DNA of 64,000 nucleotides from an uncultured Psychroflexus sp. (lineage in GTDB: Bacteria; Bacteroidota; Bacteroidia; Flavobacteriales; Flavobacteriaceae). A program made the translations under genes and the position numbers. The notes below the pieces were generated by a model. That model saw nothing but the letters and a program-made list of their open reading frames with translations, searched no databases and had not been told where the DNA came from. Location: assembly GCA_913062845.1 (NCBI GenBank), contig CAJXVZ010000001.1, forward strand, positions 1 to 64,000. Direction: 5' to 3'. Each line of letters starts with the position of its first letter. Position 1 is the stretch's first letter. This document shows, piece after piece, positions 49,344 to 60,992 of the stretch.

Positions 49344-50174
49344 ATGAAAAAAATCTTAGTACCAACCGACTTTTCCGAACAAGCCGAAAACGCATTAAAG
49401 GTAGCAGCTCAAATGGCCCGAAAATTTAAGAGTGAAATTTATCTGCTTCATATGCTCGAGCTGCCTCTGGACCTAATAGACCCTTCTCAGCCCAGCGGAA
49501 GCGGAGATCTTCCTGAGGCTATATTTTTTATGAAACTTGCACACCAAAGGTTTACGGAAGTCATGAAAAAAGATTATCTAAAAGGTATAAAAGTTCATGA
49601 AACGGTTGAGTTCCACCAGGCCTTCGAAGGTATAATGGAGATCAGTAATAAATATGACTGTGATGTAATTATCATGGGGTCAAGCGGTGCAGATGGTTTT
49701 AAAGAAATATTCATAGGTTCTAATACCGAAAAAATTGTAAGGCATTCTGAAATACCGGTATTGGTCATCAAAAAAGAAATACCCGTATTTGATGTTGAGA
49801 AATTCATATTCGCCACTGATTTGAATTTAGAAACCATTCCTACATTTGAAAAGGCCGTGGAATTTTCCCAAAAACTCAAGGCTAAAATAGAACTGGTTAT
49901 GGTAAATACACCCTCAAAGTTTATTACCACGGCAAAAATGGAAGAAAAGTTAAAAGTTTATACGGAAAATGTCAGTCAGGATGATTTTCACTTTACCTTA
50001 TATAATGATGTAAGTGTTGAAACAGGAATTTTAAATTACGGCAATAAAATCAACGCAGATCTGATTGGTATAAGTACGCATGGCAGACAGGGCATTGCTC
50101 ACTTTATAAACGGCAGTATCAGCGAAGATCTTGTCAACCATGCTAAACGACCGATTGTAACCTTTAAAATTTAG
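49344..50174 (+). CDS. Universal stress protein, tandem-domain
   Basis: A 276-residue cytoplasmic protein with two UspA domains. Domain 1 starts KKILVPTDFSEQAENALKVAAQMA and has the ATP-site motif MGSSGADGFKEIFIGSNTEKIVRHSEIPVLVI. Domain 2 (about 150-276) ends with STHGRQGIAHFINGSISEDLVNHAKRPIVTF. UspA proteins help survival during starvation and low oxygen. It is divergent from rimP and overlaps the end of the next usp gene by 4 bp. A weaker TGA-N6-type sequence (TGATTCCGATAT, 49291) lies upstream. Confidence 0.93.
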   Translation: MKKILVPTDFSEQAENALKVAAQMARKFKSEIYLLHMLELPLDLIDPSQPSGSGDLPEAIFFMKLAHQRFTEVMKKDYLKGIKVHETVEFHQAFEGIMEISNKYDCDVIIMGSSGADGFKEIFIGSNTEKIVRHSEIPVLVIKKEIPVFDVEKFIFATDLNLETIPTFEKAVEFSQKLKAKIELVMVNTPSKFITTAKMEEKLKVYTENVSQDDFHFTLYNDVSVETGILNYGNKINADLIGISTHGRQGIAHFINGSISEDLVNHAKRPIVTFKI

Positions 50175-50956
50175 GCATGAAGCACCAGTAATGGTGTTTT
50201 TTGACTTTGAGGACTTGTATCCAATTGATGGAAGATCTGATTGCTGATCGTCAGGTTTTTTGCCATGAACATAATCATATCGGCTTCTAAACAATTTTCA
50301 CAAATCGAATTATCCCCGAGAGGTTTCATGGTTTTGAAGTGATACTTTATATCATCAAAAGCCTTGGAAATCTTTTGTTTATTATTTTTTTGAAACAATG
50401 CATTGTTGAACATTTTGTTTGGAACTTCCAATATTGAAAGGTCAATATTCTTCCAGAAATCCAACTTGTTCACTGTTGAAAAATATTCTGATCTAACACT
50501 CGTGCTGTAATCTAATGGAAAAACGATGCTACCGGGTATTTTGATAACTGTATCTTCGTGTACTACCAAAATCGGACAACGTATTTTGGTTACAATATCG
50601 AATGTATTTTTTCCGAATTGTCTTTTTTCATCAGAAGTTCTGCCTTTTCCACCCATTAAAATCATATCCACATGAGATTTTTGAATGTAATTCCTAACAG
50701 AATCTACAAGGTAGTTTTTCACAAAAACTTTTGATAAGGTTTGGTTGGGTTTGAGTTGTTTTTGTAAAATATCAAAATTAAGATCCAGATTTATTTGTCT
50801 TGACATAGCACAAGAACCTTCGCAAGAAGCTGTCTTACAAGGTTTCATAGCATGAAACAATGTAAAATGCACTTCTCTGTCTCCAAAAAAATTCAGGGCA
50901 TATTCCTGCATTTTTTTGGCATTATTAGAAAAATCCGTTAGGAGTAAAACTTGCAT
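50171..50956 (-). CDS. Universal stress protein, divergent form
   Basis: A 261-residue protein with the UspA start VLLLTDFSNNAKKMQEYALNFFG and the nucleotide-site segment MGGKGRTSDEKRQFGKNTFDIVTKIRCPILVV. A second, degenerate UspA half ends QKTPLLVLHA. It has unusual cysteines in domain 1 (CKTASCEGSC) and in domain 2 (CENCLEAD) that could bind metal or act in redox sensing. It lies 73 bp downstream of the regulator gene on the same strand, with its own promoter and a Crp/Fnr-type palindrome, so it is a good candidate target of that regulator. Confidence 0.85.
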   Translation of the reverse strand: MQVLLLTDFSNNAKKMQEYALNFFGDREVHFTLFHAMKPCKTASCEGSCAMSRQINLDLNFDILQKQLKPNQTLSKVFVKNYLVDSVRNYIQKSHVDMILMGGKGRTSDEKRQFGKNTFDIVTKIRCPILVVHEDTVIKIPGSIVFPLDYSTSVRSEYFSTVNKLDFWKNIDLSILEVPNKMFNNALFQKNNKQKISKAFDDIKYHFKTMKPLGDNSICENCLEADMIMFMAKNLTISNQIFHQLDTSPQSQKTPLLVLHA

Positions 50957-50976: not shown

Positions 50977-50984
50977 CAAACTTA
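50977..50984 (-). promoter_or_regulatory. Promoter -7 box of the divergent usp gene
   Basis: Reads TAAGTTTG on the - strand, a perfect TAnnTTTG, 21 bases before the ATG. No TTG is present at the -33 position, as expected if an activator is needed. Confidence 0.55.
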
Positions 50985-51006
50985 AAATTAAAGCAACTAG
51001 TTAGAA

Positions 51007-51020
51007 ATGATATATATCAG
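51007..51020. promoter_or_regulatory. Crp/Fnr-type palindrome upstream of usp
   Basis: ATGATATATATCAG holds TGAT-N4-ATCA, the core of the FNR consensus TTGAT-N4-ATCAA, and a perfect 12-bp palindrome (51008-51019). Its centre is about 41 bases upstream of the transcription start predicted from the -7 box, the class-II activator position. The adjacent gene encodes a Crp/Fnr-domain regulator. Confidence 0.55.
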
Positions 51021-51029
51021 TTTTGAAGC

Positions 51030-52064
51030 TTATGTTATATTTTCCAGTTTTTCAAAATCAAGAACTTTTATATTTCTGCCTTCAATTTCGATAAGACCTT
51101 CTTTTTTAAGCTTAGATAAAGTCCTGATCAAACTTTCCTGAGCAATCCCCGCTACAGCTGCCAAATCTGCCCTTGAGATCCTGATCTGCCTGAGTTTATT
51201 TCTTTTTAATCTTTCGGTAAACAGCAGTATAGTCTGTGCTGTTTTTCTTTTTACAGAACTATAAGCCATATCCAGAAGCTGGTTTTTTGTATCCTGTAAA
51301 TTATGGTCTAAAACATCAATGATATCATAAAGCATTTTTGTATTACTGTCCAAATAGGTTTTAAAATCATTTTTGGGAATACAGTGAAGTTTGGTTGGCT
51401 CAAGACATTGTGCGATTTCTTTTGAAGAATTATGCTTAAAAGTAAAATCTCCAAAAACATCATCTGTTTTAAACAAGGCTGTTATCAATTCTTTTCCATT
51501 TTCATCGATCATATATGTTTTCACAACGCCCTTATCGACCATGTAAAAGTAATTATTGCCTTGATTGCTGTCATAGACAACCTCAGAGCTTTCAAAACTT
51601 TTAATTTCATAGGATTTCAGATGATTCTTGAGTTCTTCGAAATCCTTAATCTTTGGGCCTTCATCCTGTTTTTCCTGTCGTTGTTTTAAGATTGCCGTTT
51701 TTGCCAACCTGCTTTCTATAGCACTTATCAGTTCATCTTCCTCAAATGGTTTGGTAAGATAATCGTCAGCACCCATATCCATTCCTTTGCGAATATCCTT
51801 ATGGTCTGTTTTTGCAGTTAAAAAAATAAAGGGTATAAATTGAGTATCTTCATTTTCAGACAGCTTTTCCAGAACGCCATAACCATCCAGTTCCGGCATC
51901 ATAATATCGCAAACAATTATATCCGGTTTTAGGATTTTAGCTGCTTCTACGCCTTTAAGCCCGTCTGAAGCTGTATTCACTTTATAACCGGATAGTTCAA
52001 GTATTTCTGCAGTATTTTCCCTTACTGTCATATCATCTTCAATCAATAGAACTTTTTTATCCAT
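51030..52064 (-). CDS. Response regulator fused to a Crp/Fnr transcription factor
   Basis: A 344-residue fusion. Residues 1-115 form a receiver domain with the acidic pair Asp10/Asp11, phospho-acceptor Asp53 (IIVCDIMMPELDG), Thr83 and Lys105. Residues about 145-255 form a cyclic-nucleotide-binding-like domain (NYFYMVDKGVVKTYMIDENGKELITALF, DVFGDFTF). Residues about 268-335 form a Crp-type winged helix (RISRADLAAVAGIAQESLIRTLSKLKKEGLIEI). The recognition helix keeps Glu310 and Arg314, as in CRP/FNR. There are no FNR iron-sulfur cysteines, so control is presumably by phosphorylation. Its ATG overlaps the kinase stop (TGATG). A cAMP-type ligand cannot be excluded. Confidence 0.92.
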   Translation of the reverse strand: MDKKVLLIEDDMTVRENTAEILELSGYKVNTASDGLKGVEAAKILKPDIIVCDIMMPELDGYGVLEKLSENEDTQFIPFIFLTAKTDHKDIRKGMDMGADDYLTKPFEEDELISAIESRLAKTAILKQRQEKQDEGPKIKDFEELKNHLKSYEIKSFESSEVVYDSNQGNNYFYMVDKGVVKTYMIDENGKELITALFKTDDVFGDFTFKHNSSKEIAQCLEPTKLHCIPKNDFKTYLDSNTKMLYDIIDVLDHNLQDTKNQLLDMAYSSVKRKTAQTILLFTERLKRNKLRQIRISRADLAAVAGIAQESLIRTLSKLKKEGLIEIEGRNIKVLDFEKLENIT

Positions 52065-53317
52065 CAGTCTTCGTGTTTAATTGGTAATTTTACAAAAAAG
52101 GTAGATCCTTTGTTTTCAAGGCTTTCAAAATAGATATTTCCTCCCAGATTCTCTAAATGTACTTTAATTATATTTAATCCTATACCTGTGCCCTGATTCA
52201 ACAAAGCGTTTTCAGCCCTAAAGTATCTTTCAAAAATATGTTCTTTATCTTTTTCCGGAATGCCGATACCTTCATCAGAAATCTCAAAATGGATAAACTT
52301 ATCGTTTTGAGTTATTTTGAGCGTAATTGTTGTGTCCTCCTTAGAATATTTAATAGCATTATTGAGCAGATTAGACAGTATGAGTTCGACAACGTTTCTG
52401 TCCTGATACATTTCTACCTCCTCCAAATCCTGTGGGTAATTGATCTTTTGACCGGTTTTGAGGGTGACATTGGCATTGTAGACCACTTCGTTAATGAGAT
52501 TCAGTAAACTAAAGTAATCAAATTTATAAGTCACCTTACCGGATTCCAAACGCTCTATAGAAAGAAAATCATTGAGAATACTTGTCAAATAATGTACCTT
52601 ATTTTTAATGGTATTGAGATGTTTATCTCTCTTGTCCTGTTGTTCCGTTTTTGTGTACTTTGAAGCCAGAGTGGCAGATGTAAGAATACCACTTAAAGGC
52701 GTCTTAAATTCGTGAGATACCAGCGACAGGAATTTTGTTTTTAGCTCATTTAGTTCTTTTTCCTTTTGAAGCGCAGTTTTAATACGTGCCTCAGCCTGCT
52801 TTCTCCGCATGATCTCATCCTTAAACAGATCATTAAGTTCCGAAAGCTCATCTACACTGTGCTGCAGCTGTTCTGTTCGTTGTTGTACTTTTTTTTCTAA
52901 TGACTCATTCAGGGAAATTATATTTTCTTCATTTTCAACACGCTTTGTGATGTCGGTAATTATGGTCATCACGAATTTTTCACCGTCAATTTTGAAGGGG
53001 TTAAGCCCGGCTTCAATTGGGAAAACGTTATTATCTTTTTTTAAACCGAATATTTTTCGGTTTTCGCCCATTCTTCTTTTTTTGTCTTTTTTTACAAACT
53101 CCTTGACGTGCTTATCGTGAGCCTGATGATGCCTTTGCGGGATCAAGGTATTGATATGTTTTCCTTTAAGTTCTTTTATATCATAACCAAACATATTGGC
53201 AGCCGATGAATTCAATTCAACAATGATTTGATTTTGATTTACAACTAAAGCGCCTTCTGATATACCATTAAAAAGTATAGAAAACATCCTTGATTCTGAA
53301 AATGAAAAATTATTCAA
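52064..53317 (-). CDS. PAS-domain sensor histidine kinase, FixL-like PAS
   Basis: A 417-residue soluble kinase with no membrane segments. Residues about 10-125 are a PAS domain, 128-190 a coiled coil, 190-255 the dimerisation domain with His202 (LSLVSHEFKTPLSG), and 300-415 the ATPase domain (NLLNNAIKYSKED, DEGIGIP, GTGIGLNIIK). In the PAS domain His67 (AHDKH) and Arg87 (GENRKIFG) fall, without gaps, on the FixL heme ligand His200 and oxygen-contact Arg220 as I recall that sequence. Heme binding is therefore possible but not shown. Start TTG 53317 is given. ATG 53287 is the alternative. Confidence 0.9.
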   Translation of the reverse strand: MNNFSFSESRMFSILFNGISEGALVVNQNQIIVELNSSAANMFGYDIKELKGKHINTLIPQRHHQAHDKHVKEFVKKDKKRRMGENRKIFGLKKDNNVFPIEAGLNPFKIDGEKFVMTIITDITKRVENEENIISLNESLEKKVQQRTEQLQHSVDELSELNDLFKDEIMRRKQAEARIKTALQKEKELNELKTKFLSLVSHEFKTPLSGILTSATLASKYTKTEQQDKRDKHLNTIKNKVHYLTSILNDFLSIERLESGKVTYKFDYFSLLNLINEVVYNANVTLKTGQKINYPQDLEEVEMYQDRNVVELILSNLLNNAIKYSKEDTTITLKITQNDKFIHFEISDEGIGIPEKDKEHIFERYFRAENALLNQGTGIGLNIIKVHLENLGGNIYFESLENKGSTFFVKLPIKHED

Positions 53318-53373: not shown

Positions 53374-53385
53374 TGATTATTGTCA
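53374..53385. promoter_or_regulatory. TGA-N6-TCA site upstream of the kinase operon
   Basis: TGATTATTGTCA keeps the Crp/Fnr core TGA-N6-TCA, with one mismatch to TGAT-N4-ATCA. Its centre is about 48 bases upstream of the predicted kinase start site and about 74 bases before the divergent cyanophycinase-like gene. Possible autoregulation. Confidence 0.35.
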
Positions 53386-58278: not shown

Positions 58279-60372
58279 TTACTGGTCTTGAGCTTGAATG
58301 GCAGTGATAACTACCGTGTTAAAAATATCATCTACTGTACAACCCCGGCTCAGGTCGTTTACCGGTTTATTTAATCCCTGAAGCATTGGTCCGATGGCTA
58401 TGGCTCCTGTCTCACGCTGTACCGCTTTATAAGTATTATTACCGGTGTTCAGGTCAGGGAAAATAAGTACTGTGGCCTGACCGGCTACTTTAGAATCCGG
58501 TAATTTACTTTGACCAACAGCCATATCTACTGCTGCATCGTATTGTATTGGTCCTTCAATATTAAGATCAGGTCTCTTTTGTTTCACAATTTCTGTAGCC
58601 TTTCTCACTTTATCAACATCTTCGCCTTTTCCGGAACTTCCTGAAGAATAGGACAACATGGCTATTCTGGCTTCGATACCAAAGGCCTTGCTTGATTCTG
58701 CAGAAGATATAGCTATCTCTGCCAATTGTTCAGCATTTGGATTCGGATTGATGGCACAATCACCAAATACAGACACTCGGTCTTCCAGACACATAAAAAA
58801 CACGGAAGATACTACCGATACACCCGGCTTCATCTTGACAAACTGAAGCGCCGGCTTTATGGTGTGCTGTGTGGTATGTACTGCTCCGGAAACCATACCA
58901 TCGGCCAGGCCTTTGTGTACCATCATGGTACCAAAATAAGATACATCTATAATCAGGTCTTCAGCCACTTCAATAGTTAGCCCTTTATGTTTTCTAAGGT
59001 TATATAGTGTTTCTGCAAAATCCTGTAAATGTTCAGAATGCAATGGATTTATAATATTAATATTTTCAAAATTCATTTTCAGGCCAAGTCTGACCACACT
59101 TTCCTTGATCTTTTCTTCCTGACCAAGTAGGGTAAGGTCTACAAAATCCATCAACGACAATCTTGCTGCCGCTGTAATGATCCTGTCATCTTCACCTTCG
59201 GGCAAAACAATGTGTTTTCTTTGCCTCTTAGCTCTTTTTAAAAGGTTATATTGAAACATTCTTGGTGTCACACCATCATGTTTGAAATTGACCAGTTTTT
59301 CAGATAATTTCTCAGTTTCACAATGCTTTTCAAAGGTACTCAAGGCTAAAAGGATCTTCTCTTCATTATCCGCATACATGTGTGTACGCATGTTTCCTAT
59401 TTTATTGGCTACTTCAAAAGTTCCCTGTTCAACAGATAATATGGGTACCAGATACTTTAAACCCTCTATTAGTTTAGTTATTGAGGGCTCAGGCACTAAT
59501 CCACCTGTCAATACGATTCCTGAAATTTTAGGATAGTTACTGGATATATTGGCCTGCAATGCCCCTAAGATAATGTCGGAACGGTCTCCGGGCGTAATGA
59601 TCAGGCAGTCCTGTTCAAGGTAGTTAAGGTAATTTTCTAACTGCATGGCGCCGACTTTGAAGCTGGAACTTTGTGAATTCAATAAATCTTCGCCAAACAA
59701 AACTTTTGCGTCTATAGCTTTGGATATTTCTTTTACACTAGGATTTTTCAAATTAGAAACCAATGGAATTGCATTTACGACAACATCTTTTGCTACCTTG
59801 GTTGTGACTTCACTTACAATGGTATCTATATTTTCCTCCTGAACCTTGTTGGCAATAACGGCTGAAACTTTCACGCCTTTTTCATCATAAGAATCATAAG
59901 CCAAATGCATGGCATTAATAAATTCCTGAAGATTCTTACCAATACCACTGGTTACAATCACTGTAGGTAATCCTAGGTTTTTGGCGATATATACATTCAA
60001 ATCCAGTTCTATTGAAACCCCTTCACCGGAAAAATCGGTTCCTTCAACCAACATGAAATCATTTTGTTCTTCAAGGGTTTTGTATTTTTCTATGATGGTG
60101 TCTATAATTTCGCCATCCTTGTCAGAATTCAATTTGTTTAAGAATTCAGGTCTTGTAAAAGCATAACATTCCTCATAATCTACCTTTAAATCGAAATGGG
60201 TTAAGATGGTATTGATGTGGTTGTCTCGGTTACCATTGGCATTATAATCTATAATTGGTCTGAAGTAACCTACTTTTGGTGTTTTTGACAACAACATTTT
60301 CATTAAACCCAAAGCGACTATAGACTTTCCGCTATTAGGCTCACTTGTGGCAATGTATATCCCTTTATTCAT
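58279..60372 (-). CDS. pta: Phosphate acetyltransferase, long form
   Basis: Converts acetyl-CoA and phosphate to acetyl phosphate. 697 residues. Residues about 1-220 are a P-loop dethiobiotin-synthetase-like domain (IYIATSEPNSGKSIVALGLM), about 225-345 a DRTGG regulatory domain, and about 370-697 the catalytic PTA domain (MFQYNLLKRAKRQRKHIVLPEGEDDRIITAA, VHTTQHTIKPALQFVKMKPGVSVVSSVFFMCLEDRVSVFGDCAINPNPN, ARIAMLSYSSGSSGKGEDVDKV). A TGAT-N4-ATCA palindrome lies 92 bp upstream of its ATG. First gene of pta-ackA. Confidence 0.98.
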   Translation of the reverse strand: MNKGIYIATSEPNSGKSIVALGLMKMLLSKTPKVGYFRPIIDYNANGNRDNHINTILTHFDLKVDYEECYAFTRPEFLNKLNSDKDGEIIDTIIEKYKTLEEQNDFMLVEGTDFSGEGVSIELDLNVYIAKNLGLPTVIVTSGIGKNLQEFINAMHLAYDSYDEKGVKVSAVIANKVQEENIDTIVSEVTTKVAKDVVVNAIPLVSNLKNPSVKEISKAIDAKVLFGEDLLNSQSSSFKVGAMQLENYLNYLEQDCLIITPGDRSDIILGALQANISSNYPKISGIVLTGGLVPEPSITKLIEGLKYLVPILSVEQGTFEVANKIGNMRTHMYADNEEKILLALSTFEKHCETEKLSEKLVNFKHDGVTPRMFQYNLLKRAKRQRKHIVLPEGEDDRIITAAARLSLMDFVDLTLLGQEEKIKESVVRLGLKMNFENINIINPLHSEHLQDFAETLYNLRKHKGLTIEVAEDLIIDVSYFGTMMVHKGLADGMVSGAVHTTQHTIKPALQFVKMKPGVSVVSSVFFMCLEDRVSVFGDCAINPNPNAEQLAEIAISSAESSKAFGIEARIAMLSYSSGSSGKGEDVDKVRKATEIVKQKRPDLNIEGPIQYDAAVDMAVGQSKLPDSKVAGQATVLIFPDLNTGNNTYKAVQRETGAIAIGPMLQGLNKPVNDLSRGCTVDDIFNTVVITAIQAQDQ

Positions 60373-60463: not shown

Positions 60464-60475
60464 TGATTTTTATCA
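60464..60475. promoter_or_regulatory. Crp/Fnr-type palindrome between pta and rlmH
   Basis: TGATTTTTATCA has both half-sites of TGAT-N4-ATCA intact. It lies in the 146-bp divergent region, centred 97 bases before the pta ATG and about 35 bases before the predicted rlmH transcription start. The likely effector is the regulator encoded at 51030-52064. Confidence 0.45.
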
Positions 60476-60518: not shown

Positions 60519-60992
60519 TTGAAAATAAAATTATTACAAATCGGCGATACCAAAACCCGCGAAATTCAAACATTGGTTGACAATTATCATAACAGATTGA
60601 AACACTATGTACAATTTGAAATTGTAAGTATACCCGATATCAAAAACACTAAAAATCTTTCTGAAAAAAAACAAAAATCAAAAGAGGCTGAACTTTTTCA
60701 AAAGCAAATCAGCACATCTGATTGGGTAGTTTTACTGGATGAAAAAGGTAAAACCCTGACCTCAAGAGGTTTTGCAAAATTCTATCAGGAAAAGATGAAT
60801 GCTGGTATCAAAACCCTGTGCTTTCTTATTGGTGGTCCGTACGGCTTTTCTGAAGATATATACCGCAGATCCAATCAAAAAATTGCATTATCTGCCATGA
60901 CCTTCACGCACGAAATGATCAGACTTGTATTTATTGAGCAAACCTACAGAGCTTACTCTATCTTGAACAATTTACCATATCATCATGATTGA
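60519..60992 (+). CDS. rlmH: 23S rRNA (pseudouridine1915-N3)-methyltransferase RlmH
   Basis: A 157-residue SPOUT methyltransferase modifying helix 69 of 23S rRNA. Family motifs: KIKLLQIGDTKTREIQTLVDNYHNRLKHYVQFEI, VVLLDEKGKTLTSRGFAKF, LCFLIGGPYGFSEDIYRRSNQKIALSAMTFTHEMIRLVFIEQTYRAYSILNNLPYHHD. The trefoil-knot SAM site (GGPYGF) and C-terminal YHHD are intact. TTG 60519 is the start because it codes the first residue of the family-standard MKIKLL, and no ATG is near. Confidence 0.96.
   Translation: MKIKLLQIGDTKTREIQTLVDNYHNRLKHYVQFEIVSIPDIKNTKNLSEKKQKSKEAELFQKQISTSDWVVLLDEKGKTLTSRGFAKFYQEKMNAGIKTLCFLIGGPYGFSEDIYRRSNQKIALSAMTFTHEMIRLVFIEQTYRAYSILNNLPYHHD

Follow-up and report, generated by a model that had tools for sequence, protein, structure and literature searches.

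The window (i.e., the whole analyzed stretch, 64,000 nucleotides of a contig from an uncultured Psychroflexus sp.) carries three adjoining minus-strand genes: a universal stress protein gene (usp), a gene for a receiver-Crp regulator, and a gene for a PAS histidine kinase (Table 1). The palindrome TGATATATATCA and the -7 box TAAGTTTG lie between the stop codon of the regulator gene and the start of usp, exactly where a preliminary description of this DNA had placed them, and 23 bp separate one from the other.

Table 1. Features of the usp-regulator-kinase locus in the window
Feature	Position	Strand	Basis
Universal stress protein gene (usp), predicted target	50171..50956	-	261 aa; Usp domain PF00582, E = 4.7e-8
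usp promoter -7 box TAAGTTTG	50977..50984	-	23 bp after the palindrome; TAnnTTTG likewise in 23 of 27 loci
Palindromic activator site TGATATATATCA (predicted)	51008..51019	.	Center at -41.5; TGAYN4RTCA equally placed and spaced in 23 of 27 loci, its own included
Regulator gene (receiver, cNMP-type domain, HTH_Crp_2)	51030..52064	-	PF00072, E = 1.5e-29; PF00027, E = 8.7e-12; PF13545, E = 4.1e-13
PAS histidine kinase gene, overlapping the regulator gene	52064..53317	-	PAS domain best matches the FixL haem-PAS domain

Between the center of the palindrome (51013.5) and the leading T of the box (50984), the distance is 29.5 bp. According to the start-site map of Flavobacterium psychrophilum, the sigma-A box TAnnTTTG occupies positions -12 to -5 (PMC9723704), which puts the palindrome center at -41.5 and the predicted usp start at about 50972 (i.e., 16 nt before the usp ATG). 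No TTG is found near -33 of the usp promoter, in agreement with the preliminary description; the spacer contains a single TTG, at about -24 to -22.

The pattern TGATN4ATCA occurs eight times in the window, compared with a shuffle mean of 2.71 (none of 100 shuffles reached 8). Six of the eight fall within ORFs of at least 100 aa, and those at 51008 and 60464 lie outside. Taken alone, the box TAnnTTTG shows no enrichment across the window (91 versus 86.57 expected). The palindrome by itself would be weak evidence; it is the conserved spacing between site and box that raises the finding above chance.

TGATATATATCA has a single further exact copy in the window's genome, at G000:C15:28219-28230 (L002). 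The second intergenic palindrome of the window, TGATTTTTATCA (60464-60475), lies between ORF 60519-60992, which we take to be RlmH-like, and a divergent phosphate acetyltransferase gene (58279-60372; PF01515); on the side of the former, it is 17 bp from a box and is therefore not a class-II site. Upstream of the kinase start, TGATTATTGTCA (53374-53385) may serve autoregulation of the kinase-regulator operon, but not as a class-II site, as the nearest same-strand TAnnTTTG is 31 bp away. At five other loci (L092, L093, L098, L110, and L113), a site with a spacing of 23 to 25 bp stands just upstream of the kinase gene and hints at autoregulation. A terminator or RNA element was rejected as the identity of the usp palindrome: an Rfam search of the window at gathering thresholds gave no matches, and the conserved feature is the spacing of the palindrome to the -7 box.

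The regulator combines an N-terminal receiver with a Crp-type half. Both of its Crp-type domains (PF00027 and PF13545) score above their cut-offs, and its PDB matches (i.e., Vfr, CRP, FNR, and FixK2) place it in the Crp/Fnr superfamily. The receiver match is accompanied by E9, D10, D53, and K105, all invariant among 14 aligned regulators, with Asp53 as the phospho-acceptor. The recognition helix carries Glu310 and Arg314, which we take to be the counterparts of the residues that read TGA in CRP and FNR. Identity as an Fe-S FNR was rejected because the N terminus is a receiver and the alignment of the 14 sequences (A1) contains one invariant Cys (Cys52) and no cluster. A cAMP-contacting Arg-Ser pair is not visible in the aligned stretch of the regulator when it is compared with the CRP motif. 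Thus, the preliminary description was right about a Crp-type regulator next door, but it had missed that the protein is a response regulator with a FixL-like kinase as partner and without an FNR-type N-terminal cysteine cluster.

The PAS domain of the kinase finds FixL as its best PDB match (1d06; E = 1.5e-13), followed by DosP. We compared 94 kinases (i.e., that of the window plus the best BLAST hit of each of 93 loci, some hits not being the adjacent gene and L039 and L088, the locus of Salinimicrobium catena, belonging to the same genome). Among these, 86 have His in the column of window residue His67, presumably that of the FixL haem ligand, and 64 have Arg in the column of Arg87, which we assume to be that of the distal, oxygen-contacting Arg of FixL. 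A FixL-related PAS domain with this His would be expected to bind haem. The kinase does not reach the cut-off of the NCBIfam FixL equivalog NF041777 (95.1 versus 850 bits).

With the regulator as query, 60 genomes (that of the window and 59 relatives) gave 30 loci. Three receiver-only matches (L044 to L046) were set aside, leaving 27 loci (L017 to L043, L017 being the window). In 23 of them, the window included, TGAYN4RTCA is followed by TAnnTTTG exactly 23 bp on. The next ORF in these 23 loci is usp-like, as judged from how it begins and, at 17 sites in other genomes, from its grouping with the window's gene in BLAST clustering; at L035, no ORF was listed in the range of the script, but the usp reading frame is present. 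At the four loci lacking the site (L022, L024, L032, and L042, the last from another genus), the regulator gene is not directly followed by a usp-like ORF, which ties the site to the usp promoter rather than to the 3' end of the regulator gene. The receiver-Crp gene of G010 (L020; G010:C1:1272655-1273638) is interrupted by an in-frame stop shortly before its end, so that 324 aa are read, yet the usp site and its spacing are kept; this case counts against the proposed pairing of regulator and site.

The same spacing recurs across genomes. In the genome of the window, a search for TGATN4RTCA and TAnnTTTG over spacings of 16 to 25 bp gave 10 matches, 6 of them at 23 bp (one of these intragenic), and the TGAY pattern at 23 bp gave 11 sites versus none for reversed-pattern controls. 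Within the genus (27 genomes), spacings of 21, 22, 23, and 24 bp were found 9, 21, 102, and 9 times (141 in total), every genome having at least one site at 23 bp, while the reversed-pattern control yielded 9 matches. Over all 60 genomes, the TGAY pattern at 23 bp occurs 333 times, versus 4 reversed-pattern matches (summed by hand); the genomes are related, and such counts are not independent observations, but the genes served by these promoters are many and unrelated. We also scanned 75 of 80 named Bacteroidota loci (L163 to L167 left out; about 9 kb each at most) over spacings of 0 to 119 bp. There, 42 matches fall at 23 bp, 19 at 45 bp, and at most 4 at every other spacing, and five scrambled half-sites gave none at 23 bp. 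A site at 23 bp is present in 28 of these loci, in 17 just after the regulator, and absent from the other 47 within those 9 kb or less.

Base frequencies reveal no TTG near -33 in the phased promoters of the genus; hence, an upstream activator is to be expected. The class-II arrangement proposed in the preliminary description is thus supported by a spacing of 23 bp (predicted center at -41.5) that is kept at usp, is dominant genus-wide, and goes together with the missing TTG. In view of the conserved spacing we rejected a chance palindrome, and the genome comparison supports the prediction that TGATATATATCA is a real, evolutionarily conserved Crp/Fnr-type activator site. It is very improbable that a repressor binds here instead, or that the palindrome stands beside the promoter by chance, since, for all that shuffling predicts 2.71 copies of the eight-base core in the window, site and spacing are exactly conserved at unrelated genes whose promoters lack the -33 contact.

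We examined the genes behind 101 of the 102 phased sites of the genus (the omitted one is in G005). The largest groups are usp (18, window included), HemN (13), cbb3 oxidase (13), thioredoxin-like proteins (6), and acetyl-CoA hydrolase/transferase (6). The cbb3 group was joined by BLAST to CcoN-like ORFs, with one separate ccoS-like ORF besides, and the representative of the HemN group exceeds the cut-off of TIGR00538. Smaller groups include FixH, a heavy-metal P-type ATPase, OmpW, YceI, DJ-1, DeoC, and a ribosome-hibernation-type protein. ORF calling was crude, so that four sites have no ORF by the rule applied; at least one ORF of 110 aa or more overlaps 15 of the 101 palindromes, several of these ORFs being the target itself, extended to a start codon further upstream, and the sites at L206, L244, and L259 look truly intragenic.

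In the genome of the window, the TGAY sites at 23 bp precede usp, ccoS/ccoN (COX1 by Pfam; ccoS a probable assignment), a heavy-metal P-type ATPase gene, a CoA-transferase gene, a formate-THF ligase gene, a thioredoxin-like gene, a DUF2490 gene, and an ORF without a family. A PEP carboxykinase gene begins 262 bp past a phased site, with a 62-aa ORF between, and a DUF4251 gene 392 bp past another; the eleventh site is intragenic. The enrichment at stress and fermentation promoters that had been anticipated is borne out in kind by usp, CoA-transferase, and PEP carboxykinase, with cbb3 oxidase and hemN in addition.

A low-oxygen regulon would accommodate most of the large groups. Against this stand genes that are not classical low-oxygen genes, namely DeoC, formate-THF ligase, the DUF genes, and an oxygen-dependent coproporphyrinogen oxidase (L208) behind one phased site, which runs contrary to simple expectation. 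A globin-like ORF behind a phased site is a weak match below the Pfam cut-off. At L309 (G016:C12), phased sites like TGATTCAAATCATAAA stand before a small ORF and one that is globin-like, and similar sites are found at L184 (G022), L269 (G005), and L235 (G014). G016 also has a further Crp-type gene (198 aa; helix GLRVETVIR) beside two phased sites, perhaps encoding a second regulator with an overlapping site.

The matches at 45 bp in the named loci reflect tandem sites. A second copy follows 22 bp further on (i.e., at a spacing of 23 bp), and in 17 of the 19 cases it retains at least six of the eight core positions, compared with 1.5% of 5,000 random segments. The two copies (at -63.5 and -41.5) are as a rule strict upstream and weaker downstream. 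Such loci (among them L110, L113, L116, L129, L130, L133, L142, L145, L149, L151, L157, and L159) are mostly outside Flavobacteriaceae, L117 and L151 being inside. At six Sphingobacteriaceae-type loci (L129, L130, L139, L142, L145, and L159), the ORFs next to the regulator and behind the 45-bp promoter start alike. The one tested (L159:5140-6171) encodes a D-2-hydroxyacid (lactate-type) dehydrogenase in the place of usp, and a fermentation gene at all six loci is therefore a fair guess.

Whether the code belongs to the receiver-Crp protein can be judged from its distribution. The protein occurs in 27 of the 60 genomes (as a fragment in G007 and with the internal stop in G010). A stand-alone FNR-like protein, defined by an E value under 1e-40 against the L300 protein (a cut-off chosen once the list had been viewed, with weaker matches such as those in G036, G044, G050, and G057 counted as none), occurs in 19; 2 genomes have both. 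Of the 33 genomes without the receiver-Crp protein, 17 have the FNR-like protein instead; in the genus, only G022 has such a match. The four FNR-like proteins read (L298/L308, L299, L300, and L301; 225 to 241 aa) carry CxxC near the N terminus, the cysteines having been viewed in 4 of the 19 genomes, and have the helix Glu and Arg at the same places as the receiver-Crp protein. Among genomes with either protein, 43 of 44 hold 3 to 19 phased sites, the exception being G055 (FNR-like), which has none; with neither protein, 15 of 16 hold 0 to 2, the exception being G024 with 11. G024 and G018 (2 sites) are the two genus members with neither protein, and their assemblies are incomplete (86% and 79%, respectively). 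Thirteen of the 16 genomes with neither protein are smaller than 2.5 Mb, and the contrast holds per megabase (mean, 2.37 versus 0.35). Because genomes without the receiver-Crp protein also hold phased sites when the FNR-like protein is present, the code is not specific to that regulator, and we rejected the idea that it is exclusive to it. The preliminary description, correct about the Crp-type neighbor, had missed this different protein, which apparently uses the same promoter code in other genera. We lean toward a single Bacteroidota low-oxygen code (TGAYN4RTCA-N23-TAnnTTTG) served by two interchangeable sensors: certain lineages would use a cysteine-bearing FNR-like protein, and others a two-component pathway of a FixL-like haem kinase and a receiver-Crp fusion that combines the roles of FixJ and FixK.

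The same distribution leaves room for another reader in the window's own genome, i.e., a different Crp/Fnr protein (an FNR-like [Fe-S] or a second Crp-type protein) that binds the class-II site while the response regulator does something else. Such a reading draws on the 18 of 19 genomes with the FNR-like protein that have at least three phased sites and on the identical helix residues of the proteins read, but we consider it unlikely. The best L300 match in the genome of the window is the receiver-Crp regulator itself (28% identity), and an HTH_Crp_2 search there found, besides the regulator, one other protein, at the edge of contig C9 (L048), with no Glu in its recognition helix (TSRVVISR). 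The gene for this protein may be split over two contig ends, its other half being a cNMP domain that lies at the edge of C133 (L310). Moreover, the site lies just 3' of the regulator gene in 23 of 27 loci and 17 of 75 named loci.

We propose the neighboring response regulator as the probable reader of a class-II site in a compact FixL-(FixJ+FixK) low-oxygen pathway; the FixL-like kinase and the regulator, which joins what are normally two proteins, look like a Bacteroidota low-oxygen control circuit. When oxygen falls, the haem-PAS kinase would phosphorylate the receiver of the regulator at Asp53, and the regulator would then bind, as a dimer, TGAY-N4-RTCA centered at -41.5. So placed, it could replace the missing -33 contact, recruit RNA polymerase to the TAnnTTTG -7 box, and switch on the adjoining usp together with a dispersed low-oxygen regulon. 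In the genome of the window, this regulon would comprise cbb3 oxidase, the heavy-metal P-type ATPase, CoA-transferase, the thioredoxin-like protein, and probably PEP carboxykinase; in sister species, it would include hemN.

Haem-bearing PAS domains are also able to bind NO and CO, and 30 of the 94 kinases lack the aligned Arg. The regulator could accordingly sense redox, nitric oxide, or carbon rather than oxygen through the same site and class-II mechanism, a reading with some precedent in the carbon sensing predicted for Flavobacteriales CRP/FNR homologues, as indicated in PMC8510549. We regard it as improbable: besides usp, the commonest genes behind the sites are those for cbb3 oxidase and hemN, and when oxygen is limiting, F. 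psychrophilum is described as raising haem synthesis as well as cbb3 oxidase (PMC9723704).

The proposed pathway resembles several known systems. In E. coli, class-II activation by FNR and CRP is centered at -41.5. The window resembles it in the 29.5 bp from palindrome center to box, which is also the distance in E. coli, and in similar target functions; it differs in that the regulator has no FNR-type cysteine cluster, the sigma-factor box is another, and the half-site TGAY lacks the outer T. In rhizobia, FixK2 is a Crp/Fnr-type factor and the FixK palindrome is TTGATN4ATCAA, close to TGAYN4RTCA. The rhizobial FixL-FixJ-FixK cascade shares with the window a FixL-like PAS kinase, a receiver, a Crp/Fnr-type output, and a cbb3 oxidase target; unlike that cascade, the window has receiver and Crp-type DNA-binding half in one protein, acting at Bacteroidota -7 promoters. 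The rhizobial cascade is outlined for FixLJ-FixK2 in PMC6710368. In Rhizobium leguminosarum, according to the account in PMC7888657, the hFixL kinase signals via a separate regulator, FxkR, to induce fixK. There, too, a FixL-type output is rewired onto a Crp/Fnr regulator, but through a separate protein, whereas receiver and Crp-type half are fused in the window. A further comparison is with the FNR-like proteins of other Flavobacteriales (L300 type), which have the same helix Glu and Arg and the same phased promoters (G055 excepted) but stand alone and, in the four read, carry CxxC near the N terminus.

Within open-access titles and abstract openings, no description of the receiver-Crp protein, its kinase, or the promoter code was found. 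A term search of the main text of PMC9723704 likewise returned neither "Crp" nor "Fnr". Given that F. psychrophilum induces cbb3 oxidase under oxygen limitation and that this main text names no Crp/Fnr factor, a candidate mechanism would be useful. If the proposal is true, Bacteroidota, whose promoters are unlike the E. coli type, would gain a defined class-II activation geometry like that of E. coli, and their low-oxygen regulon would be predictable from sequence alone. The regulon would have been kept while its sensor was exchanged, and the locus described here would represent a collapsed version of the FixL-FixJ-FixK cascade.
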